Origin: Streptomyces sp. WP-1 | GTDB lineage: Bacteria; Actinomycetota; Actinomycetes; Streptomycetales; Streptomycetaceae | Reading direction: 5' to 3' | Assembly (NCBI RefSeq): GCF_030450125.1 | Contig: NZ_CP123923.1 | Coordinates: 7,225,001-7,289,000 of the forward strand | Length of the DNA: 64,000 nt | Shown: positions 5,864 through 42,780 of the stretch, piece by piece | Position numbering within the stretch: the first letter of the stretch is position 1 | Layout of the letters: every line of letters begins with the position of its first letter | Notes under the pieces: model-generated | What the model was told of the DNA's origin: nothing | Databases searched by the model: none | The model's input: only the letters and a program-made list of their open reading frames with translations | Program-made: the position numbers and the translations under genes

Positions 5864-5975
5864 GCACCCTCCGGACCGTGCGGGCAGGAGTCGAGATCAG
5901 CCGGTCCGGCGTGGTGTACGTCACTCTATGACCGGGGTGGGGGGCCCGGCGATCGCTCAGCCCTCTGACCTGTTG

Positions 5976-5992
5976 AGCATTGATCCAATGCT
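5976..5992. promoter_or_regulatory. Inverted repeat AGCATTG-N3-CAATGCT
   Basis: Perfect 7-base arms with a 3-base spacer, inside the non-coding stretch 5864-6468 and 113 bases upstream of the 2Fe-2S gene start. It looks like a dimeric regulator site. The rest of the 600-base stretch shows no convincing gene; a short coding-like piece (ELEQRLPGLTRGE) at about 6138-6176 is not recognised. Confidence 0.5.
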
Positions 5993-6468
5993 GAGGAGGG
6001 AGACTTTCGCGCACTGAACGTGACCGACCGATACCGAACGGCTGCCGCATTCCGCCGGGGTGATCAGGTGCTCGGCAGCGCCGACGGCACCCCGGGGAAC
6101 GCACCGGCCGACACCCTGCGCGCCGCCCGCATCCATGAGCTGGAGCAACGGCTGCCGGGGCTGACCCGGGGCGAGGGCGAGAACTGGAGACCGCCTCCGA
6201 CCACTACACACCCCTCACCCACGGCCCGGTCCCCGAGCGCCGCGCCGACCACAACCCGCTGAACAGGAGGAATACCTGCTGAACGAGATCCGCGGGGCGG
6301 GGGACCGAGCGGCCGGGCCCGGCGGCAGCCGTTCGGCGCGCGCGATCGCGCCGGAACTGGTCTGCTGGTCAGGGGCGGCCCGTCGTACCGGCCCGTCCGG
6401 GAGAGCGGCGGCCGGCACCCCGGTCGGCTGCCCCGCCCACGCTCGTACCCCCTTCCCCGGAGAGATCC

Positions 6469-7494
6469 ATGAGCAGCTATCGAGTCGCCCAAGTGACCGC
6501 CGCGAACGGGACGTTCGAGGTCGTCGAGCGCGAGGTGCCACGGCCGGGGCCCGGCCACGCGCGGATCGCCGTCGAGGCGTGCGGCGTCTGCCACAGCGAC
6601 GCGCTGTTCGTCGGCGCGGCGCTGCCCGGCATCACCTTCCCCGAGGTGCCAGGGCACGAGATCGCCGGGCGGATCGCGGAGCTGGGCGAGGGCGTGGGGG
6701 AGCGCGGATGGCAGGTCGGCGACCGGGTGGCCGTGGGCTGGTTCGGCGGCAGCTGCGGCCACTGCCGGGCCTGCCGCGAGGGCGACTTCATCGTGTGCGA
6801 GAGCCTCAAGGTGCCGGGCTGGACCTACGACGGCGGCTTCGGCGAGCAGATGATCGCACCCGCCGACGCCCTGGCCCGGATCCCCGACGCGCTCTCCGCG
6901 AGCGACGCCGGACCGCTGGCCTGCGCGGGCGTGACCACGTTCAACGGGCTGCGGCGCAGCGCGGGCCGCCCCGGCGACCTGGTCGCGGTGCTCGGCCTCG
7001 GCGGCCTCGGACACCTGGGTGTGCAGTACGCGGTCGCGATGGGCTTCGAGACGGTCGCGATCGCCCGGGGCCCCCAGAAGGCGGACTTCGCCCGGCAGCT
7101 CGGCGCCCACCACTACGTCGACAGCACCGCCGCCACCCCGGTCGCCGAGGCGCTGCAGTCCCTCGGCGGTGCCAAGGTCGTCCTCGCCACCGCCGGCAAC
7201 TCCGAGGCCATCTCCGCCACGGTGGACGGCCTGACCCACCGCGGCGAACTGGTCGTCATCGGCGCGGACATCGCCCCCCTCGGCATCAACCCCAACCAAC
7301 TCCTCATGGCCGCCCGCGTGGTCCGGGGCCACCCCTCCGGAACCTCGCGGGAGGTCGAGGACACCATGGCGTTCAGCGTCCTGCACGGCATCCGCCCGAT
7401 GACGGAGAAGGTCCCGCTGACGGAGGCGGACGCGGCGTACCGGAAGATGCTCGCGGGGAACGCGCGGTTCAGGATGGTCCTGACGGAGGGGTGA
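6469..7494 (+). CDS. Zinc-dependent alcohol dehydrogenase (medium-chain, AdhP-like)
   Basis: 341 aa, full length. Catalytic zinc ligands are in CGVCHSD (residues 38-44) and GHEIAG. The structural zinc loop is CGHCRACREGDFIVCE. The Rossmann motif is GLGGLGHLG. These features define an NAD(P)-dependent alcohol/aldehyde oxidoreductase. Start 6469 has GGAGAG 7-8 bases upstream. It is monocistronic: the next gene, folD, runs convergently. Substrate range cannot be predicted. Confidence 0.9.
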   Translation: MSSYRVAQVTAANGTFEVVEREVPRPGPGHARIAVEACGVCHSDALFVGAALPGITFPEVPGHEIAGRIAELGEGVGERGWQVGDRVAVGWFGGSCGHCRACREGDFIVCESLKVPGWTYDGGFGEQMIAPADALARIPDALSASDAGPLACAGVTTFNGLRRSAGRPGDLVAVLGLGGLGHLGVQYAVAMGFETVAIARGPQKADFARQLGAHHYVDSTAATPVAEALQSLGGAKVVLATAGNSEAISATVDGLTHRGELVVIGADIAPLGINPNQLLMAARVVRGHPSGTSREVEDTMAFSVLHGIRPMTEKVPLTEADAAYRKMLAGNARFRMVLTEG

Positions 7495-7623
7495 GCCGGG
7501 GGCCGCGATTCCGGCGCCCCCTCGGCCGACTCCCGCCGCGCGCGACCGAGTCCGACCGGTGCGGCCGGGGACGAGTACGCGGCCGGTACCGCCGGATACG
7601 CCCGCCCCGCCCCCTTCCCGCCG

Positions 7624-8484
7624 TCAGGCCGCCCCCAGCCCCCCTGCCGCGGTCTCCGCCGCCGTCACCGTCTGCTCCAGCAGCGTGGCGATCGTCATCG
7701 GGCCGACGCCGCCCGGGACCGGGGTGATCAGGGAGGCCCGTTCGACGGCCGAGTCGAAGTCGACGTCGCCCACGTTCCCGGCGTTGTAACCGGCGTCGAC
7801 CACCACCGCGCCGGGCTTGATGTCCTGGCCCCGCAGCAGCCGCGGCCGGCCGACCGCGGCGACGACGATGTCCGCCTCGCGGACCGCCGCCGGCAGATCA
7901 GCGGTGCGCGAGTGGCAGTACGTCACCGTCGCGTCCCTGGCCAGCAGCAGCATGCCCACCGGCTTGCCGAGGATCGCGCTGCGGCCCACCACCACGGCCC
8001 GCTTCCCGGCCGGGTCGACACCGTACTCGTCCAGCAGCCGCAGGATGCCGCCCGGCGTGCAGGACACGAAGCCCGGCAGGCCGAAGCTCATCGTGGCGAA
8101 GGAGGCGAAGGTGACCCCGTCGACGTCCTTCTCGGGCGCGATCGCCTCGAACGCGGCCCGCTCGTCGACGTGGTCGCCCACCGGGTGCTGGAGCAGGATC
8201 CCGTGCACCGCCGGGTCGGCCGACAACTCCCGCAACGTGCCCACCAGTTCGGCGGTGGACGTGCTCGCGGGCAGCGCCACGTGCCGGGAGGTGATGCCGG
8301 CCTTGCGGCAGCGGTTCTGCTTCATCCGGACGTACGTCACGGACGCCGGGTCCTCGCCGACCAGCACGGTCGCGAGACAGGGCACCACACCGGTGCGCGC
8401 GGTGAGTTCCGCCGCCCTGCGCGCGGTGTCCTCGACGATGCGACGGGCGAGGGCGGTTCCGTCCATGAGACGGGCCTGGGTCAT
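7624..8484 (-). CDS. folD: Methylenetetrahydrofolate dehydrogenase / cyclohydrolase
   Basis: 286 aa. The bifunctional enzyme interconverts 5,10-methylene-, methenyl- and 10-formyl-tetrahydrofolate. Visible signatures are the active-site YVRMKQNRCRKAG (Tyr-x3-Lys), LLQHPVGDHVDE, the dinucleotide-binding GRSAILGKPVGMLL and the C-terminal TPVPGGVGPMTIATLL. Start 8484 is set by family alignment and AGGAG upstream. A ZTP riboswitch lies directly before it, so expression should rise when 10-formyl-THF is short and AICAR phosphates build up. Confidence 0.95.
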   Translation of the reverse strand: MTQARLMDGTALARRIVEDTARRAAELTARTGVVPCLATVLVGEDPASVTYVRMKQNRCRKAGITSRHVALPASTSTAELVGTLRELSADPAVHGILLQHPVGDHVDERAAFEAIAPEKDVDGVTFASFATMSFGLPGFVSCTPGGILRLLDEYGVDPAGKRAVVVGRSAILGKPVGMLLLARDATVTYCHSRTADLPAAVREADIVVAAVGRPRLLRGQDIKPGAVVVDAGYNAGNVGDVDFDSAVERASLITPVPGGVGPMTIATLLEQTVTAAETAAGGLGAA

Positions 8485-8507
8485 GCGGCACACTCCTGAG
8501 CTGGATC

Positions 8508-8600
8508 GATGTCTCTCGCCCAGGCGCGCGGCAACCATACGGACCGCTCCCCGGTGGTACTCCACCCAAGCGCCAGTCACGGCCCGGGTACAGCGTAACC
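8508..8600 (-). promoter_or_regulatory. ZTP (pfl) riboswitch controlling folD
   Basis: Read on the minus strand, the leader carries the conserved pfl blocks in order: GTGACTGGCG (8571-8580), GTGGAGTACCACCGGGGAGCG split as a hairpin GTGGAGTACCAC plus CCGGGGAGCG (8545-8565), and CGCGCGCCTGGGC (8518-8530), which forms the pseudoknot. These match the ZTP/ZMP-sensing class known upstream of folD, glyA and purH. The blocks end about 30 bases before the folD start, leaving room for a ribosome-site switch. The exact ends are approximate. Confidence 0.9.
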
Positions 8601-8928
8601 GAGGCGCGTACGGGGCCGAGGAGCGGGCGCCACGACCCCCATGGCTCCGCCGCTACGGCACGCATGCCCTCGCCCCAAGTCCCTTGAAACCAGCCCCTAT
8701 TGACAGCTCACCGCCGGGGGTCGTCGGGGAGCCTCACCGCATCCGTCCACGCCGGACCCGCGGCACCCGCACCACCCGCGACGCGCGCGGCACCGCGACC
8801 GGCGGACGCCCGCGCACCGCCCTGAGCACGGACCGCAGCACCGCCCTCGTCACCGGCACACCCGCGACGGAGACCGGCCCGTGCCGTCGGGGCCGCGCCC
8901 GGCCCACCACGGCGCGGGCCGAGAAGGT

Positions 8929-8953
8929 CCAGGTCAGCCGGGAGCTGACCTGG
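8929..8953. terminator. Perfect 10-bp hairpin, terminator of the SnoaL-like gene
   Basis: CCAGGTCAGC at 8929-8938 pairs with GCTGACCTGG at 8944-8953 around CGGGA. It begins 20 bases past the stop of the leftward gene ending at 8973. The rest of 8601-8928 shows no gene I can support. Confidence 0.7.
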
Positions 8954-8972
8954 ATACGGGCGGACCTCCTGC

Positions 8973-9338
8973 CTACTCGTCCCATGCCTGGATCAGAATC
9001 TGCTCGGCGATCTTGCCGTCCCGCAGCGTGATCATCGACTCGGCGAGGACGCGGGTGCCGTCGCCGTACTGGCAGGACTCGGTGAACGCGGCGTGGTCGC
9101 CTTGCACCACGCAGCGGTCCAACTTGTGGATCATGTCGCGGCGGTAGACGTCGTCGAGCATCTCGGCGATCTCGCCGCGGCCGTGCAGGATCCTGGGACG
9201 GCTGGGCTGGGTGTCGCGGTCGACGATGCGGATCTCCGCGTCGTCCGCGTACAGGGACAGCAGGGTGTTCCCGGTGTTCCCCTCGATGCCCCGGCGCAGT
9301 GTCCCGACGTCGAAGGCGGAGCCTGTCGCGGTGCCCAT
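8973..9338 (-). CDS. SnoaL-like / NTF2-fold nuclear-transport-type protein
   Basis: 121 aa. The pattern LLSLYADDAEIRIVDRD, then LHGRGEIAEMLDDVY, then a strand-rich half with ESMITLRDGKIAEQILIQAW is the cone-shaped NTF2/SnoaL fold. Members include ester cyclases and ketosteroid-isomerase-like enzymes, but many are binding proteins. Start 9338 follows AAGGAGG exactly 7 bases away. A hairpin terminator follows. It is a single gene facing the small secreted-protein gene. Confidence 0.8.
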   Translation of the reverse strand: MGTATGSAFDVGTLRRGIEGNTGNTLLSLYADDAEIRIVDRDTQPSRPRILHGRGEIAEMLDDVYRRDMIHKLDRCVVQGDHAAFTESCQYGDGTRVLAESMITLRDGKIAEQILIQAWDE

Positions 9339-9509
9339 GGTGACCTCCTTCAGGCGCTCGCGGCCCGGCGCGCGGCGGACCGTACGGGCCCCGTCTTCGA
9401 GCGTCCCCCGGCCCGGCGGCCTCGGCAAGCGCACGGGGCGCGCTCCGCCTCACGAGTGAGCGCGGGCCGCCGCCCGTGTCCGGACGGGGCCTCGGGCGTT
9501 GCTGAGGGC

Positions 9510-9806
9510 ATGATCTCAACACGCCGTATCGTCGCCGTCCTCGGTCTCGCCGCCGGGGTCACGGGCCTGGCCGCACCCCTCGCCACCGCGGCCGACGCGA
9601 GCGCCTCGCACACCGGGCAGATCAACCCGATGACCGTGCTCGACTCGCTCACCACCGGCAACATCCCCGCCGAGCAGCGGGCGCAGATGCCCACGGCCTC
9701 CCAGCAGCTCAAGGCCCTGAACCAGGTCAGCCAGCTGAACCAGCTCAGCGAACTCCACCAGGTCACCGACATCGTGGCACCGGTGACCGGCCTGCTGCCG
9801 CTGTAG
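9510..9806 (+). CDS. Small secreted protein of unknown function
   Basis: 98 aa. It has an Arg-Arg N-terminus, a hydrophobic core (IVAVLGLAAGVTGLAA) and a likely cleavage after ATA near residue 27, so it is exported. The mature part is about 70 residues, rich in Gln, Leu and Ser (LKALNQVSQLNQLSELHQV), and should form an amphipathic helix. There is no Cys. Similar small secreted helical proteins are common in streptomycetes, without known function. Confidence 0.75.
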   Translation: MISTRRIVAVLGLAAGVTGLAAPLATAADASASHTGQINPMTVLDSLTTGNIPAEQRAQMPTASQQLKALNQVSQLNQLSELHQVTDIVAPVTGLLPL

Positions 9807-9838
9807 GGACCCGAGCCGACGCCCCGCGCCGAGAGCAC

Positions 9839-9895
9839 GGTGCCTCACACCGAGGCCCCGTGTCCCACATCGAGGCCCGGTGCCTCACGCGGAGG
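9839..9895. repeat. Short imperfect tandem repeat, about 20 bp x 3
   Basis: Units begin GGTGCCTCACACCGAGGCCC, GTGTCCCACATCGAGGCCC and GGTGCCTCACGCGGAGGC. The last unit overlaps the 3' end of the acyltransferase-like gene. It fills the gap between two convergent genes. Each unit carries a small CCTC/GAGG inverted pair, so together they may help end transcription. Confidence 0.55.
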
Positions 9896-10667
9896 CGCCG
9901 CGCAGTGCCGCACCGCCGCCCGCTTTCAGCACCGCCCAGTCCCGGGCCACGGCGTACGCCGAGCCGGGGGCCGGGGCGGTGCCCGGCGGCAGGCTCTCGG
10001 CCAGCGCCCGGACCAGGGTGTCCGCCGGGCCCAGCTCCAGCCAGGTCCGCACCCCCTCCCGGTGCAGCAGCCCGGCCACGTCCGCGAGCCGCCGGGTCCC
10101 CGGGCCCGGCAGCCAGAACCCCGGCTCGGCGGTCTCCGCGCCGACCGGGCGGGCGGTGACGTCGGAGACGAGGGGGAGCCGCGGCGGGCAGGGGTGCAGC
10201 GTGGCGAGGGTACGGCCGTACGCGGTGAGCAGCGCCTGCGGGGCCGCCTCGCCCAGGGCACCGTCCAGCAGCCGGGCCAGCGTGCCGACCGCGTGGCAGC
10301 CGTCCGCGAGCGAGAAGACCCCGGCGGCGTACGCGGCGGCCATCCGCCCCGCCCCGTGCCCGAACAGCACATCAGGGCGGGCGCCCCAGCTCCGCAGCAG
10401 CCGGTACTGCGCCACCTGGAGCGCGAAGAGCGCCGGCCCGGCGTACGACGCCCGGCCCAGCAGCGCCGCCGTCCGGGTGCCGGGCTCCGCGAACATCACG
10501 CTTTTCAAAGGCAGTTCGAGATAGGGGTCCAGACGGGCGCACAGCTCGTCCAGCGTCTTCGCGAACAGCGGGAAAGCCGCCGCGAGTTCACGTTCCGTCC
10601 CCGGGCGCGGCGAGGCGCCGGCCGAGAACAGGAATGCGGTACGTCCCTTACGGCCATCAGCGAGCAT
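9885..10667 (-). CDS. Degenerate polyketide-type acyltransferase (AT) domain, catalytically dead
   Basis: 260 aa as a stand-alone protein. FLFSAGASPRPGTERELAAA, then GPALFALQVAQYRLLRSWG, then AAAYAAGVFSLADGCHAVG and HPPR-like LHPCPPRLPLVSDVTARPVG align in order with malonyl-transferase domains of type I polyketide synthases. The nucleophile motif GHSxG is replaced by GHGAG, so the Ser is gone. The segment that normally holds the catalytic His (about 60-70 residues between RLLDGALG and LLTAYG) is deleted. Typical AT domains are about 300 aa. The reading frame is intact and ends in family-like LELGPADTLVRALAES, so it may be a scaffold, a regulator or a recent relic. Start 10667 is tentative. 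Confidence 0.75.
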   Translation of the reverse strand: MLADGRKGRTAFLFSAGASPRPGTERELAAAFPLFAKTLDELCARLDPYLELPLKSVMFAEPGTRTAALLGRASYAGPALFALQVAQYRLLRSWGARPDVLFGHGAGRMAAAYAAGVFSLADGCHAVGTLARLLDGALGEAAPQALLTAYGRTLATLHPCPPRLPLVSDVTARPVGAETAEPGFWLPGPGTRRLADVAGLLHREGVRTWLELGPADTLVRALAESLPPGTAPAPGSAYAVARDWAVLKAGGGAALRGASA

Positions 10668-10862
10668 GCCCCCATGAAGACACGGCCGGGTAAGCACCCG
10701 GACCGGTCGGCTCCCCGCACCGCGCAAAGGAATCGCCATCACCGAACGTCGTCATTCGATCCGATTCTTGTGCAATTCATAAGCGATCCCCGGCTCGGGT
10801 GCCCCCCGGGGGAAAGATCCACGATCACCGCCGTGGCCCGTCCCGCCCCCCGACGCACGCGC

Positions 10863-35848: not shown

Positions 35849-36589
35849 ATGAATCAGCTCGGACTCCCCGACGACATCCAGGCCTGCCTCTTCGACCTCG
35901 ACGGGGTCGTCACCAAGACGGCCGTGGTGCACGCGGCCGCCTGGAAGGAGACGTTCGACGCCTTCCTGCGCTCCCACGAGGGCGCACAGGCACGGCCGTT
36001 CGACGCGGTCGCCGACTACGACGAGTACGTCGACGGCCGCCCCCGCGCCGACGGGGTGCGCGCCTTCCTGGAGTCACGCGACATCCATCTGCCGGAGGGC
36101 ACGCCGGACGACCCACCGGAGGCCCTGACCGTGAACGGCCTCGGCAACCAGAAGAACGAGCTGCTCCTGGAGCGGATCCGCACCGGCGGCGTCGAGGCGT
36201 ACGAGGGCACCCTGCGCTACCTGGAGGCGGTCCGCGCCGAGGGGCTGCGCACCGCGATCGTCTCCTCCAGCGCCAACTGCCGTGACGTGCTGCGGGCCGT
36301 GGACGCCGAGCACTTCTTCGACGTACGTGTCGACGGCGTGGTGGCCGCCGAGCGCAAGCTGCCGGGCAAGCCGCACCCCGACACCTTCCTCGCCGCCGCC
36401 CACGACCTGGGCGTCGAACCGTCCCGGGCGGCCGTCTTCGAGGACGCGCAGGCCGGGATGGACGCGGGCCGCGCGGGCGGCTTCGGGTACGTCGTCGGCC
36501 TCGACCGGGTCGGCCAGCGCGAGGCGCTGTACGCGCACGGCGCGAGCGTCGTCGTGGCGGACCTCGCCGAGCTGGGAGGCAAGCGGTGA
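35849..36589 (+). CDS. Beta-phosphoglucomutase-family HAD hydrolase
   Basis: 246 aa. ACLFDLDGVVTKTAVVHAAA carries the nucleophile Asp and the general-acid Asp two residues later. The cap domain follows, then TAIVSSSANCRDVL, KLPGKPHPDTFLAAA and AAVFEDAQAGMDAGRAGGFG. It converts beta-glucose-1-phosphate to glucose-6-phosphate. It overlaps the next gene (GTGA), a GH65 phosphorylase that would make beta-glucose-1-phosphate, so the assignment is firm. The start at 35849 is chosen by alignment. Confidence 0.9.
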   Translation: MNQLGLPDDIQACLFDLDGVVTKTAVVHAAAWKETFDAFLRSHEGAQARPFDAVADYDEYVDGRPRADGVRAFLESRDIHLPEGTPDDPPEALTVNGLGNQKNELLLERIRTGGVEAYEGTLRYLEAVRAEGLRTAIVSSSANCRDVLRAVDAEHFFDVRVDGVVAAERKLPGKPHPDTFLAAAHDLGVEPSRAAVFEDAQAGMDAGRAGGFGYVVGLDRVGQREALYAHGASVVVADLAELGGKR

Positions 36590-38943
36590 TCACCCAGGGG
36601 TCGTACGCCGTCGAGCCGTGGGCGGTCCGCGAGACCACCCTCGACCTCGATCTGCTCGCCCAGAGCGAGTCCGTGTTCGCGCTGTCCAACGGCCATGTCG
36701 GCTGGCGCGGCAACCTCGACGAGGGCGAACCGCACGGGCTGCCCGGCAGCTACTTGAACGGCGTGCACGAGGTGCACCCGCTGCCGTACGCGGAGGCCGG
36801 GTACGGCTATCCGGAGTCGGGCCAGACCGTCATCAACGTCACCAACGGCAAGGTGCTGCGGCTGCTCGTGGACGACGAGCCGTTCGATCTGCGCTACGGC
36901 CGCCTCACCGCCCACGAACGGGTCCTGGACCTGCGCCGCGGGGTGCTGGAGCGGACCTGCGAGTGGACCTCGCCGGCCGGTTCCACGGTCCGGGTGCGTT
37001 CGACCCGGCTGGTCTCGCTCACCCAGCGCGCGGTGGCCGCCGTGGCGTACGAGGTGGAGGCCGTCGGCTCCCGCAGCCGGGTGGTGATCCAGTCCGAGCT
37101 GGTCGCCAACGAGAGCCTGCCCGGCTCCGACGGCGACCCGCGCGCGGCCGTGGCGCTCAAGTCGCCCCTGGAGCAGGAGGACGATTTCGCCACGGGCAAC
37201 CGGCTGCGCCTGGTGCACCGGACCCGGCGCAGCGGTCTGCGGGTCGCGGTCGCCGCCGACCACGTCGTCAGCGGGCCCGAGCGCACCACCACCCGCAGCG
37301 AGAGCGGCACGGACCTGGCCCGGCTGACCGTCACCTCGGTCCTGGAGCCCGGGCAGAGCCTGCGGGTGGAGAAGCTGGTCGCCCACGGCTGGTCCGCGAC
37401 CCGCTCGCTGCCCGCGATGGCCGACCAGGTCGACGCCGCGCTCGCGGCCGCCGCCCACGACGGCTGGCCCGGGCTGCTCGCCGACCAGCGGGCCTGCCTG
37501 GACGACTTCTGGGCACGTGCCGACGTCGAGGTCAGCGGCGACGAGGAGATCCAGCAGGCCGTACGGTTCGCCCTGTTCCACGTCCTGCAGGCGGGGGCCC
37601 GCGCGGAGCAGCGCGCGATACCCGCGAAGGGTCTGACCGGTTCCGGCTACGACGGGCACGCGTTCTGGGACACCGAGATGTTCGTGCTGCCGGTGCTCAC
37701 CCACACCGCGCCCGCGGCCGTCGCCGAGGCGCTGCGCTGGCGGCACAGCACCCTGGACGAGGCCCGCGAGCGTGCGGCCCAACTGGGGCTCGCCGGGGCC
37801 GCGTTCCCCTGGCGGACCATCGCGGGGCCGGAGGGCTCGGCGTACTGGCCGGCCGGCACCGCCGCCTTCCATGTGAACGCCGGTATCGCCGACGCCGTGG
37901 TCCGCTACGTCGAGGCCACCGGCGACACCGCCTTCGAACGCGAGGCCGGGGTCGAACTCCTGGTGGAGACGGCCCGGTTGTGGCGCTCGCTCGGCCACCA
38001 CGACGCCCACGGCGTCTTCCACCTCGACGGCGTCACCGGACCCGACGAGTACAGCGCGGTCGCCGACGACAACACCTACACCAACCTGATGGCGAGTCAG
38101 AACCTGCTGGCCGCAGCCGACATCGTCGAACGCCATCCGCGCGAGGCCGCCCGGCTCGGGGTGGACGAGGAGGAGAGCGCGGCGTGGCGGGACGCGGCCG
38201 CGGCGATGCACGTGCCGTACAACGCCGAACTCCGCGTCCACGAACAGCACTCCGGGTTCACCCGCTACCAGCGCTGGGACTTCGACGGCACCCGCTCCGA
38301 CCAGTACCCGCTGCTGCTGCACTTCCCGTACTTCGACCTCTACCGCAAACAGGTCGTGAAACAGGCCGACTTGGTGCTGGCGCTGTACACGTGCGACAGC
38401 TGGTTCGCCGAGCGGTACGACGAGGAGCAGATCGCCCGGAACTTCGCCTACTACGAGCCGCTGACCGTCCGCGACTCCTCCCTGTCCGCCTGCTGCCAGG
38501 CCGTCGTCGCCGCCCGGACCGGCCATCTCGACCTCGCCTACGACTACACGGCCGAGGCGGCTTTGATGGACCTGCACGACCTGGAGCACAACACCCGCGA
38601 CGGGCTGCACATCGCCTCGCTCGCCGGTACCTGGATGGCGCTGGTCGCGGGCTTCGGCGGGATGCGCCGCGACGGCGAACGGCTGCGCTTCGCCCCCCGG
38701 CTGCCCGAGCGGCTCTCCAGGCTCGCCTTCCATGTGCAGTTCCGGGGGCGCAGGCTGCGGGTGGAGATCGACGCGGACAAGACGACGTACGAGCTGCTCG
38801 ACGGCCCGCCGCTGGAGCTGCGGCACCACGGTGACGCCATCACGGTGACCACGAGCGAGCCGGCCGTCCGCGCGGTACCCCCGACCATCCGCCGCCCGCT
38901 GCCGCAGCAGCCCCGCCACCGGGTACCGAACGAGACCTCCTGA
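36586..38943 (+). CDS. Glycoside hydrolase family 65 disaccharide phosphorylase
   Basis: 785 aa. GH65 members phosphorolyse maltose, trehalose, kojibiose or similar alpha-glucosides to beta-glucose-1-phosphate. The N-terminal beta-sandwich starts SVFALSNGHVGWRGNLDEGE. The catalytic barrel has GHAFWDTEMFVLPVLTH and the general-acid Glu in HLDGVTGPDEYSAVADDNTY. The phosphate loop region is near RDSSLSACCQAVVAARTGHL, and the toroid ends with NTRDGLHIASLAGTWMALVA. The GTG start overlaps the beta-phosphoglucomutase stop. Linkage specificity cannot be told. Confidence 0.92.
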   Translation: MITQGSYAVEPWAVRETTLDLDLLAQSESVFALSNGHVGWRGNLDEGEPHGLPGSYLNGVHEVHPLPYAEAGYGYPESGQTVINVTNGKVLRLLVDDEPFDLRYGRLTAHERVLDLRRGVLERTCEWTSPAGSTVRVRSTRLVSLTQRAVAAVAYEVEAVGSRSRVVIQSELVANESLPGSDGDPRAAVALKSPLEQEDDFATGNRLRLVHRTRRSGLRVAVAADHVVSGPERTTTRSESGTDLARLTVTSVLEPGQSLRVEKLVAHGWSATRSLPAMADQVDAALAAAAHDGWPGLLADQRACLDDFWARADVEVSGDEEIQQAVRFALFHVLQAGARAEQRAIPAKGLTGSGYDGHAFWDTEMFVLPVLTHTAPAAVAEALRWRHSTLDEARERAAQLGLAGAAFPWRTIAGPEGSAYWPAGTAAFHVNAGIADAVVRYVEATGDTAFEREAGVELLVETARLWRSLGHHDAHGVFHLDGVTGPDEYSAVADDNTYTNLMASQNLLAAADIVERHPREAARLGVDEEESAAWRDAAAAMHVPYNAELRVHEQHSGFTRYQRWDFDGTRSDQYPLLLHFPYFDLYRKQVVKQADLVLALYTCDSWFAERYDEEQIARNFAYYEPLTVRDSSLSACCQAVVAARTGHLDLAYDYTAEAALMDLHDLEHNTRDGLHIASLAGTWMALVAGFGGMRRDGERLRFAPRLPERLSRLAFHVQFRGRRLRVEIDADKTTYELLDGPPLELRHHGDAITVTTSEPAVRAVPPTIRRPLPQQPRHRVPNETS

Positions 38944-40224: not shown

Positions 40225-40377
40225 GTTCCAACCTTACAGCGCGTAGTGGCGGTGCTCGCGGGCCGTACCGCCTTCCCGGACAGCGGGGTGAACGGCGGGT
40301 TCGCCCGAGATCTCCGGTCACTCTGTGATGGGGTGGACCTTTCCGGTTCCGCCCCCTTCGGGGCGAAGGGGAGGATG

Positions 40378-41898
40378 ATGACCGGCAGCGCCGACGCCGT
40401 ACTCACCGGGACGCGATCCGCCCGCTCCCGGCCCCCGTCCGAGGCCGCCCGAAGCCGCCGGGCCGCCCTCCCGCTCGCGGCCGTCGCCGCCGCCTTCACC
40501 CTCGTCCAACTGCTCCTGGTCCGCCCCGGCATGGGCCTCGGCTGGGACGAGGCGGTGTACGTCAGCCAGTTCGGCGTCCGCGCCCCCGCCGCCTACTTCA
40601 GCGCGCCCCGGGCCCGCGGCATCTCTTTGCTCGTCGCGCCGGTCGCCGCGTGGTCGTCCTCCACGGTCCTGCTGCGCTGCTACCTCGCCGCCCTCTCCGG
40701 CCTCGCCCTGTACCTGGCCCTGCGGACCTGGCGCGGCCTCTTCCCGCCCCGCGCCCTCACCCTCGCCGCCGCCCTCCTCGCCTCCCTGTGGGTGACCCTC
40801 TTCTACGGCCTCCAGGCGATGCCCAACTACTGGGTCGCGGTGGGGGCCCTGGTGACGGTCGGCTCCTACCTGCGCGCGGGCGTGCCCCCGTCCGGCCGGG
40901 CCGCGCTCGGGGGCCTGGCCGCGGGCGCCGCGCTGATGGGCTGGATGCGGCCCATGGACGCGGTGTGGGCCGTCCTGCCGCTGCTCGCCGTCGGTCTGCG
41001 GCACCGGCACTGGCGGCGGCTGTCCGTGCTGCTCGCCGGGCTCGCGGCCGGGGTCGCCGAGTGGGTGGTCGAGGCGTACGCGCGCTACGGCGGCCTGCTG
41101 CACCGGCTGTCCGAAGGCTCGGCGATCCAGGGCGGCCTCGGCTGGCATCTCGCCGTCGTCGACCAGCTGCGCAGCCTCGGCGGCCGCACCCTGTGCCGTC
41201 CCTGCGCCGGCGCGCTGCCCGGCCCGCTCGTCACCTTCTGGTGGTGCGCGCTGCCCCTGCTCGCCGCGCTCGCCCTGCTGTACGCGGTCCGCGCCGGACG
41301 GACGGCGGCCACGGCACTGCCGGTGGCGTGCGCGGCGTCGGCGGCCTTCCCCTACCTGTTCCTGATCGGCTACGCGGCCCCCCGCTTCCTGCTCCCCGCC
41401 TATGCCCTCCTCGCCCTCCCCGTCGCCGCCGCCCTGCTCCACCTGGCGAGCGCCCCGCCCCGGCCCTGGCGTCCGGTGGTCGCGGGCGCGCTCTGCCTGG
41501 CGTTCGCCGTCCACCTCGGGGCCCAACTGACCGTGCTGGCGCGCACGGCGGGCGTCGCCGCCGACGGCCACCGCTCCTGGTCGCGCACCGCCGCCACCCT
41601 GCACCGCCTCGGCGTGCGCGCCCCCTGCCTGGTCACCGGCGAGGACGCCCTGCCCGTCGCCTTCTACGCCGGCTGCGCCTCGGCCGCGACGTCCGGCCCC
41701 AACGCCGACACCACGGCGGACGCCCTCGCGCGCACGGTCCGGCGCGTTCCGACGGCCACCCTCGTACCGGCGGGGGCGAAACCGCCCGGGTACGCCCGCG
41801 ACTGGCCGTGGGTCGCGGCCGAAAGCCGACGGTTGTACTACACGCCGGGGCGCGCGGAAGGGTTTCCGGTCAGGCCGCGTCAGGTAGGAGACGGGTGA
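40378..41898 (+). CDS. Polytopic membrane protein, GT39/ArnT-like glycosyltransferase
   Basis: 506 aa with about ten hydrophobic segments (for example LPLAAVAAAFTLVQLLLV and ALYLALRTW further on). MGLGWDEAVYVSQFGV early on, just after the first membrane helix, matches the first periplasmic loop of GT-C enzymes with its acidic pair. SYLRAGVPPSGRAALGGLAA resembles PMT-type proteins. A short soluble tail follows. It may transfer a sugar or arabinose from a lipid carrier. Start 40378 (or ATG 40375) follows GGGGAGG. The proteasome gene starts 28 bases downstream. Confidence 0.7.
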   Translation: MTGSADAVLTGTRSARSRPPSEAARSRRAALPLAAVAAAFTLVQLLLVRPGMGLGWDEAVYVSQFGVRAPAAYFSAPRARGISLLVAPVAAWSSSTVLLRCYLAALSGLALYLALRTWRGLFPPRALTLAAALLASLWVTLFYGLQAMPNYWVAVGALVTVGSYLRAGVPPSGRAALGGLAAGAALMGWMRPMDAVWAVLPLLAVGLRHRHWRRLSVLLAGLAAGVAEWVVEAYARYGGLLHRLSEGSAIQGGLGWHLAVVDQLRSLGGRTLCRPCAGALPGPLVTFWWCALPLLAALALLYAVRAGRTAATALPVACAASAAFPYLFLIGYAAPRFLLPAYALLALPVAAALLHLASAPPRPWRPVVAGALCLAFAVHLGAQLTVLARTAGVAADGHRSWSRTAATLHRLGVRAPCLVTGEDALPVAFYAGCASAATSGPNADTTADALARTVRRVPTATLVPAGAKPPGYARDWPWVAAESRRLYYTPGRAEGFPVRPRQVGDG

Positions 41899-41925
41899 TA
41901 CCGCGTGTTTATGGAGGGGAAGCAG

Positions 41926-42780
41926 ATGACGGGGAACGACACCGCCGGGCTCATGGACGAGGCGTTCTTCACGCCGGGAAGCTCGTCCTTCGCCGAGTTC
42001 CTGGCCGCCCACCGCCCCCGGCTGCTGCCCACCGCCTCCCCGCTGCCGCCCGGCACGAGCGCGGCCGAGGGCAGTTTCCCGCACGGCACCACGGTGCTCG
42101 CGCTCACCTACGGCGAGGGTGTGCTGCTCGCCGGGGACCGCCGGGCCACCATGGGCAACCTGATCGCCCAGCGGGACCTGGAGAAGGTCCACCCGGCAGA
42201 CGACCACACGGCCGTCGCCTTCGCCGGCACCGTCGGGCTCGCCCTCGACATGGTGCGGCTCTACCAGGTCGAACTGGCCCACTTCGAGAAGATCGAGGGC
42301 ATTCCGATGACCCTGGGCGCGAAGGCGACCCGCCTCGCGACCATGATCCGGCAGAACCTCGCCCAGGCCATGCAGGGCCTCGCCGTCGTCCCCCTGCTCG
42401 CCGGGTACGACCTCGGCGCGCCCACCGGCGAGGGCGGCCGCATCTTCGCCTACGACGCGGTGGGCGGTCTGTACGAGAAGCGGGAGTTCCACGCCGAGGG
42501 CTCCGGCTCGCCGTACGCCCGGGGCGCGCTCAAGAAGCTCTACCGGCCCGGACTGACCCGCCGCGAGGCCGCCCTCGCCGCGCTGCACGCGCTGTACGAC
42601 GCCGCCGACGACGACTCGGCCACCGGCGGGCCCGATCTCAACCGCCGTATCTTCCCGATCCTGTCGTTCATCACCGAGGACGGCTACGAACGGCTGCCGG
42701 AGGCCGAGACCGAGGAGCTGAGCCGCGAGATGGTGCGCCAGCGCGACGGCCGCCCGGACGGCCCGCACGTCGCACCCTGA
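41926..42780 (+). CDS. prcB: Proteasome beta subunit (orphan paralogue)
   Basis: 284 aa. Residues 1-54 form the propeptide (SSSFAEFLAAHRPRLLP, as in PrcB), ending at FPHG before the active Thr55. Counting from that Thr, Asp17 and Lys33 are kept (AGDRRATMGN, QRDLEKVHP), and AMQGLAVVPLLAGYDLGAP and ALYDAADDDSATGGPDLNRR match actinobacterial PrcB. It should self-process and assemble into a 20S core. No prcA, pup, dop, mpa or pafA gene is nearby, unlike the usual locus. The ATG at 41926 is preferred (GGAGGGG upstream); it can also start at 41905. Confidence 0.9.
   Translation: MTGNDTAGLMDEAFFTPGSSSFAEFLAAHRPRLLPTASPLPPGTSAAEGSFPHGTTVLALTYGEGVLLAGDRRATMGNLIAQRDLEKVHPADDHTAVAFAGTVGLALDMVRLYQVELAHFEKIEGIPMTLGAKATRLATMIRQNLAQAMQGLAVVPLLAGYDLGAPTGEGGRIFAYDAVGGLYEKREFHAEGSGSPYARGALKKLYRPGLTRREAALAALHALYDAADDDSATGGPDLNRRIFPILSFITEDGYERLPEAETEELSREMVRQRDGRPDGPHVAP

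Follow-up and report, generated by a model that had tools for sequence, protein, structure and literature searches.

The DNA analysed here, referred to as the window throughout, is a stretch of 64,000 nucleotides (C1:7225001-7289000) from a 7.62-Mb, single-contig Streptomyces genome, and it carries a gene for a proteasome beta subunit that stands by itself. A preliminary description read the active site of this orphan gene product as intact and proposed that it may be a second beta subunit that builds a hybrid core with a different cleavage preference, or else a specialised peptidase. The locus raises the question of whether the product is an additional component of the ordinary proteasome, a resistance protein, a drifting duplicate, or an enzyme with no tie to the proteasome. 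We use PrcB2, a label coined in the present analysis, for the product and its orthologues.

PrcB2 is a bacterial proteasome beta subunit with an intact active site

The gene and the parts of its product discussed in this section are as follows:

41926..42780, + strand: prcB2, second 20S proteasome beta subunit, 284 aa (TIGR03690, PF00227)
41913..41919, + strand: ribosome-binding site GGAGGGG, 6 bases 5' of the ATG (sequence; G-rich block kept in the alignment)
41926..42087, + strand: propeptide of 54 aa, with Gly as the last residue before Thr1 (alignment to precursor 2h6j/1q5r and mature 1q5q)
42088..42090, + strand: codon of the catalytic Thr1 (T55), kept in 120/120 listed relatives

A second in-frame ATG is present upstream, at 41911; we place the start at 41926 because GGAGGGG stands at 41913-41919. 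In profile searches, PrcB2 matches TIGR03690, the equivalog model of bacterial 20S beta subunits, with an E-value of 6.7e-106 and 353 bits (cut-off 191.9). The HslV model gives 29.9 bits, below its cut-off of 137, and no Anbu model is among the profile matches listed. Among solved structures, the best matches are chains annotated as proteasome beta subunits; in the alignment with mature 1q5q_H, a Rhodococcus chain, PrcB2 residue 55 falls on the first residue. Residues 15-54 align to the precursor chains 2h6j/1q5r, and cleavage of the propeptide before Thr1 is predicted.

A protein search with PrcB2 returned 430 proteins with an E-value of 1e-100 or better, of which 120 were listed. Those of the listed relatives that bear an organism name are all from Streptomyces and are annotated plainly as proteasome beta subunits; in a separate contig search, a named relative of the gene, from S. 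murinus, shows 98% identity. The active site was correctly described as intact: Thr1 (T55), Asp17 (D71), and Lys33 (K87) are present in the window protein and in 120/120 relatives among the matches listed (430 found). Within the same 120 of 430, GSG is found in all and DDDS in 117, the other 3 having E-for-D variants; we take GSG and D..S to be catalytic motifs of proteasome beta subunits.

The canonical proteasome locus lies elsewhere in the genome

A whole-genome search identified exactly three PF00227 genes, namely PrcB (C1:6312390), PrcA (C1:6313219), and PrcB2 (C1:7267082). Canonical PrcB and PrcA are surrounded by Mpa, Dop, Pup, and PafA, each scoring above its own NCBIfam cut-off, and this Mpa-Dop-Pup-PrcB-PrcA-PafA locus is 0.95 Mb distant from PrcB2. 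Because the genome has a canonical PrcB and a single PrcA elsewhere, PrcB2 is a second beta subunit alongside one alpha subunit, and the reading of it as such, which depended on a canonical prcB being found, stands. So does the statement that it has no proteasome partners beside it, as no prcA, pup, dop, or mpa was found in the 27 Pfam-scanned genes of the 59 that a gene finder placed in the window.

Second beta subunits recur across the genus

To judge from a sample of 199 genus genomes (own genome included), in which at most 12 candidates were scored per genome so that all counts are lower bounds, second beta subunits are found repeatedly in Streptomyces. At least 46/199 genomes show two PrcB matches; in one of these (G180) the two matches are a single gene split by frame, leaving at least 45/199 with a second beta gene, one copy of which looks degraded. 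PrcB2 orthologues (74-100% identity) are present in at least 34/199 genomes, and the other 11 second copies are made up of 8 genes from a second orphan lineage, 2 distant PrcB2 relatives (G059 and G103), and a single PrcB2 that looks degraded. The last of these, in G133, occupies the syntenic place (locus L152, about 9573-10382); its Asp17 is replaced by Gly, and its pocket stretch fails to align. Fewer than two PrcB matches were seen in 153/199 genomes, again with at most 12 candidates scored in each. All 34 PrcB2 genomes have exactly three PF00227 genes: PrcB, PrcB2, and one PrcA beside PrcB.

A wider sample took in 396 genomes from across the phylum, with no more than 6 candidates scored in each; at least 144 genomes outside the genus have a PrcB match, and one draft assembly among those 144 (G551; best E-value 2.5e-30) has two. 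A contig search gave at least 80 loci, among the matches listed 24 PrcB2 (75-98%) and 56 others (57-61%). Three orphan betas of the second lineage (L142, L144, and L146) lie near genes of methylmalonyl-CoA mutase type and other acyl-CoA genes, as judged by eye, a repeated context that suggests a conserved place.

PrcB2 forms its own clade and is mostly inherited vertically

The preliminary description called for a PrcB tree across streptomycetes. The one that we built by maximum likelihood has 88 rows, two candidates with stops having been excluded, and in it PrcB2 forms a well-supported clade of its own, apart from canonical PrcB. All 32 PrcB2 rows fall into this single clade (support 100/98), with L127/L129 as sister (100/97), while the canonical Streptomyces PrcB rows and Kitasatospora form a separate clade (99/95) that PrcB2 stands outside. 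A third clade (97/96) contains 8 second-lineage rows together with L060, which had been entered as canonical but has no PrcA in its locus. Support is weak (91/39) where PrcB2 joins the remaining Streptomycetaceae betas, and long outgroup branches meet, of which the program warned, so that the order of the oldest splits is tentative.

PrcB2 distances track canonical PrcB distances (Mantel r 0.64, with 0/2000 permutations as high; 30 of 34 genomes), and the gene appears to have been mostly inherited vertically, with losses, and often in synteny. The median dN/dS of PrcB2 is 0.27 (276/276 pairs, 24 loci), compared with 0.13 for canonical PrcB (1275/1275 pairs, 51 loci). By this measure PrcB2 is under purifying selection; at the same time prcB2 appears dispensable, because its dN/dS is double the canonical value and because G133 has a degraded-looking copy.

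The S1 pocket of PrcB2 is altered across the clade

We take the S1 pocket of a proteasome beta subunit to consist of positions 20, 31, 35, 45, 49, and 53. The pertinent codons are as follows:

42178..42234, + strand: S1-pocket stretch (from alignments; pocket numbering of the proteasome literature, with 45/49 named as well in excerpts of PMC5721123 and PMC4177604)
42178-42180, + strand: PrcB2 Leu31 (canonical Ile/Val)
42190-42192, + strand: PrcB2 His35 (canonical Phe)
42220-42222, + strand: PrcB2 Phe45 (canonical Ile)
42232-42234, + strand: PrcB2 Val49 (canonical Ala)

Among 50 distinct PrcB2 sequences, Val49 is found in 50/50 and Phe45 in 48/50, compared with Ala49 in 56/57 and Ile45 in 57/57 other betas, where the lone Val49 belongs to the orphan L060. 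The listed relatives (120 of 430) tell the same story, with Leu31 and Phe45 in 120 each and Val49 and His35 in 119 each; all 25 canonical rows (L060 having been moved out) have Ile or Val31, Phe35, Ile45, and Ala49. We compared the pocket, as so defined, with the remainder of the protein over those mature columns (1-210) whose conservation in canonical Streptomycetaceae is 90% or higher. Changes affect 4/5 pocket columns and 32/144 others in PrcB2 (Fisher p 0.012), 3/5 and 20/144 in the second orphan lineage (Fisher p 0.026), and, against all 45 canonical rows, 2/3 and 9/85 (p 0.040), all three p values being uncorrected and based on few, non-independent columns. Judged by these alignments, the S1 pocket of PrcB2 is altered in a conserved, clade-wide manner.

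The second-lineage pockets (9 rows including L060) are more varied: Val20/Phe31/Thr49 in four near-copies, Leu20/Val49 in two, and Phe20/Val49, Val20/Phe31, and Val20/Tyr31/Val49 in the others. This variety indicates that S1 has been remade repeatedly in orphan beta subunits. Val49 also occurs in the orphan betas L124, L125, L130, L060, L127, and L129. The four closely related second-lineage betas with Thr49 are L132, L134, L135, and L136; Ala49Thr is listed for bortezomib-resistant cell lines in an excerpt of PMC4177604.

A conserved promoter-like element precedes prcB2

Three features lie upstream of the gene:

40375..41898, + strand: upstream membrane-protein ORF (no Pfam match; family in 18/25 PrcB2 loci)
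41862..41867, + strand: putative -35 element GTTTCC (conservation of the two-part motif)
41882..41889, + strand: putative -10 element AGGTAGGA, read as AGGTAG, 14 bases past GTTTCC (motif conservation, SigB-family likeness)

An alignment of 53 PrcB2 upstream regions shows a conserved block here. Scored as GTTTCC-N15-GGTAGGA, the motif reaches 11-13 of 13 in 49/49 distinct PrcB2 upstream regions (of 54, identical and short ones being excluded), always at spacing 15, a count that measures conservation and not independent prediction, as the motif was derived from these same, mutually related sequences. It ends 31-59 bases 5' of the alignment-inferred start. Upstream regions of the canonical set (57/57, L060 and non-Streptomyces rows included) score only 7-9, and 8/980 shuffled regions reach 11, with none higher. 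The own genome contains one exact match, upstream of prcB2, and three matches with one mismatch.

As to the sigma factor, we scored the element on a SigB-family matrix built from 24 S. coelicolor promoters (table in PMC8346170, seen in excerpt), whose own scores run from 7.3 to 16.7. GTTTCC-N14-AGGTAG scores 9.51, a value equalled or exceeded by 2.2% of 3000 random 110-mers from the window. The element is the top site on this matrix in 48/54 PrcB2 upstream regions, another site being higher in 6/54, and the median best score is 9.51 for PrcB2 versus 5.52 for the 57 canonical-set regions. Compared with the SigB-family pattern (a GTTT-like -35, a GGG-A- -10, and 12-15 bases between them), the -35 and the spacing fit, but the first -10 base is A/T. 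Passages of PMC8346170 state that SigF, SigH, and SigN promoters hold GTTT more strictly and that the first three -10 bases are nearly always G. The departure from a near-invariant G makes the type of sigma factor doubtful, and it is with this doubt that we infer recognition of the prcB2 promoter by a SigB-family factor for stress or sporulation.

The presence of a promoter-like element in all 49 distinct upstream regions makes it likely that prcB2 is transcribed separately. From the end of the upstream ORF (41898) to the prcB2 ATG there are 27 bases, and that ORF runs into the putative promoter, so the short intergenic gap is no sign of a shared transcript. The earlier suggestion of a transcript shared with the upstream gene is accordingly disfavoured, as the element is kept at constant spacing even where the upstream gene differs; we rejected an operon as the main model on the same grounds, the upstream gene varying between loci while the element is constant. 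The label "GT39-like" for that gene finds no support in a Pfam scan of the ORF, which gave no family match.

Two other forms of control were considered and set aside. HAIR, ClgR, and PopR patterns (the latter two from an excerpt of PMC9775585) occur in 0/53 upstream regions, leading us to reject control of the Clp or heat-shock type. A SigB-type promoter common to PrcB2 and the canonical operon was likewise rejected, being seen at only 5/52 loci with no wider conservation in the alignment. We note in passing that GTTTCC-N14-GGGTAC, with a single mismatch to the motif, stands in the own genome 394 bases 5' of the Mpa gene, and that a SigB-type match stands 391-394 bases 5' of the Mpa/ARC gene in 5/52 loci (shuffles 5/2600); the entries concerned are L184 (motif at 1501), L114, L066, L102, L062, and L059.

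Most PrcB2 loci show no sign of an inhibitor cluster

Neighbourhoods were compared over 25 PrcB2 loci (the window and 24 others). A small NTPase-like family, with a MeaB match below its cut-off, is nearby in 20/25, a HAD phosphatase in 15/25, and a GH65 enzyme in 11/25; no PrcB2 locus searched has PrcA beside PrcB2. Within the window, the HAD phosphatase and GH65 genes (35849-38943) share a four-base overlap and resemble a sugar phosphorylase/phosphoglucomutase pair. The gene immediately 5' of PrcB2 in 13/25 loci, though not in the window, belongs to the lysylphosphatidylglycerol synthase transmembrane family (e.g., L038:8951-9931).

Neither the 27 Pfam-scanned of the 59 window genes nor a pattern scan of the window's middle part revealed PKS/NRPS families, so within that scope the window PrcB2 does not share the inhibitor-cluster location of SalI, the subunit by which the salinosporamide producer resists its own compound. 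A pattern scan of 435 proteins found neither KS nor AMP-binding motifs among the genes examined at 24/25 PrcB2 loci; for L034, L047, L048, and L049, one of the two flanks was short. The remaining locus, L045 (Streptomyces sp. NBRC 110611), has the sole PrcB2 of the 25 seen beside KS-AT and AMP-binding/ACP genes: PrcB2 is at 10001-10861 and a PKS gene at 5942-9496, 505 bases apart. The pocket of this PrcB2 additionally has Gln35 and Lys53. The L045 locus may mark a proteasome-inhibitor cluster, and its PKS genes imply that recruitment of PrcB2 as a resistance gene may also occur.

A probable exchangeable subunit, weighed against other explanations

We think it somewhat probable, from the sequence comparisons above, that PrcB2 can take the place of the ordinary beta subunit in the Pup-proteasome as an active catalytic subunit, expressed from its own promoter, and that the resulting core, alternative or mixed, would cleave differently and respond less to inhibitors. 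In this scheme prcB2 would be transcribed from its own promoter, probably by a SigB-family stress or development sigma factor; the product, with its PrcB-like propeptide, would cleave itself before Thr1 and join the single PrcA in an alternative or mixed 20S core, as vertebrate cells swap immunoproteasome subunits; and the Leu31/His35/Phe45/Val49 pocket would lead the core to cut after other residues and make it less sensitive to inhibitors that fill S1. The hybrid core of the preliminary description thus receives partial support, in that a second beta subunit, one PrcA, and a clade-wide S1 change all fit, while the assembly and its cleavage stay conditional. More tentatively, and with the balance against it, PrcB2 could be a Streptomyces counterpart of the immunoproteasome, in which a SigB-type stress or developmental signal swaps the constitutive beta subunit for an old one with a remodelled pocket, to give a second core that tolerates natural proteasome inhibitors and yields other peptides, the pockets of several lineages having arisen separately.

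A possible, though doubtful, alternative is that PrcB2 is chiefly a resistance determinant against a proteasome inhibitor of salinosporamide, lactacystin, or epoxyketone type, whether made by the cell itself or by a neighbour. The precedent would be SalI of Salinispora tropica, which is likewise an extra PrcB-type subunit in addition to the canonical one and likewise has S1 changes at 45/49: Val49 and Phe45, the PrcB2 residues, are those named for SalI in an excerpt of PMC5721123. Passages of PMC4177604 report effects of Ala49Val on inhibitor resistance, on specificity, and on cleavage of the prosequence, position 49 is changed to Val or Thr in other orphan lineages too, 9/17 epoxyketone-type clusters have a proteasome beta gene (PMC8988807, in excerpt), and the L045 PrcB2 is 505 bases from a PKS gene. 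However, the reviews disagree on SalI position 45, which PMC4177604 gives as Val with little role. SalI is also located inside the salinosporamide cluster, whereas PrcB2 forms, in our tree, its own Streptomyces lineage, and its nearly invariant pocket is unlike the outcome of an arms race. Because 24/25 loci lack cluster signs (KS or AMP-binding motifs in the examined genes), and because of the mostly vertical, often syntenic inheritance and the near-fixed pocket, we favour a physiological role over self-resistance; the pocket match to SalI nonetheless leads us to favour inhibitor tolerance as a property of PrcB2. The EpnC/TmcC-type betas of epoxyketone clusters are also extra beta subunits, with self-resistance proposed in passages of PMC8988807, but they are cluster-bound, a distinction from PrcB2 drawn from their description.

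That PrcB2 is a drifting duplicate which merely mixes into the core with no special role is unlikely. Its patchy presence (at least 34/199 genomes), a dN/dS above that of canonical PrcB, and the degraded-looking L152 copy would fit such drift, but the catalytic residues and pocket are almost invariant in the 120 listed relatives (430 found), and the upstream element is conserved. We regard as very improbable a stand-alone ring peptidase that works without PrcA in the manner of HslV or Anbu, and with it the specialised peptidase first suggested: although no PrcA adjoins PrcB2 in any locus searched, PrcB is by far the nearest family (353 bits versus 29.9 for HslV), the PrcB-like propeptide is kept, and each of the 34 genomes has PrcA.

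Relation to known proteasomes and significance

Canonical Streptomyces PrcB shares its family, propeptide, and catalytic residues with PrcB2 at about 57-62% identity (among the matches listed), and differs in pocket residues 31, 35, 45, and 49, in locus, in upstream element, and in clade. Two settings for extra betas are already on record: inhibitor clusters, where they serve as resistance genes, and Rhodococcus erythropolis, where a second alpha accompanies the extra beta. The latter has beta1 and beta2 subunits, and thus two betas in one actinobacterium as here, but its alpha is doubled as well, whereas PrcB2 genomes double the beta only. In an excerpt, a 2026 review (PMC13022661) presents R. 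erythropolis as the apparent sole exception to the one-alpha, one-beta arrangement, a statement that the PrcB2 genomes contradict; in the open-access literature that we searched, we met no account of a second Streptomyces PrcB outside a cluster. The vertebrate immunoproteasome and thymoproteasome likewise have exchangeable catalytic betas with differing S1 pockets (PMC12650242, in excerpt), a likeness to PrcB2 in working and not in descent.

PrcB2 is thus a member of a family found in many Streptomyces and not a one-off, and in genome mining a second beta gene on its own should not be taken to signal an inhibitor cluster. If PrcB2 joins PrcA, its near-fixed Phe45/Val49 pocket would offer a natural system for the trade-off between activity and inhibitor tolerance, and bacterial 20S cores would be non-uniform, with core composition a regulated variable.
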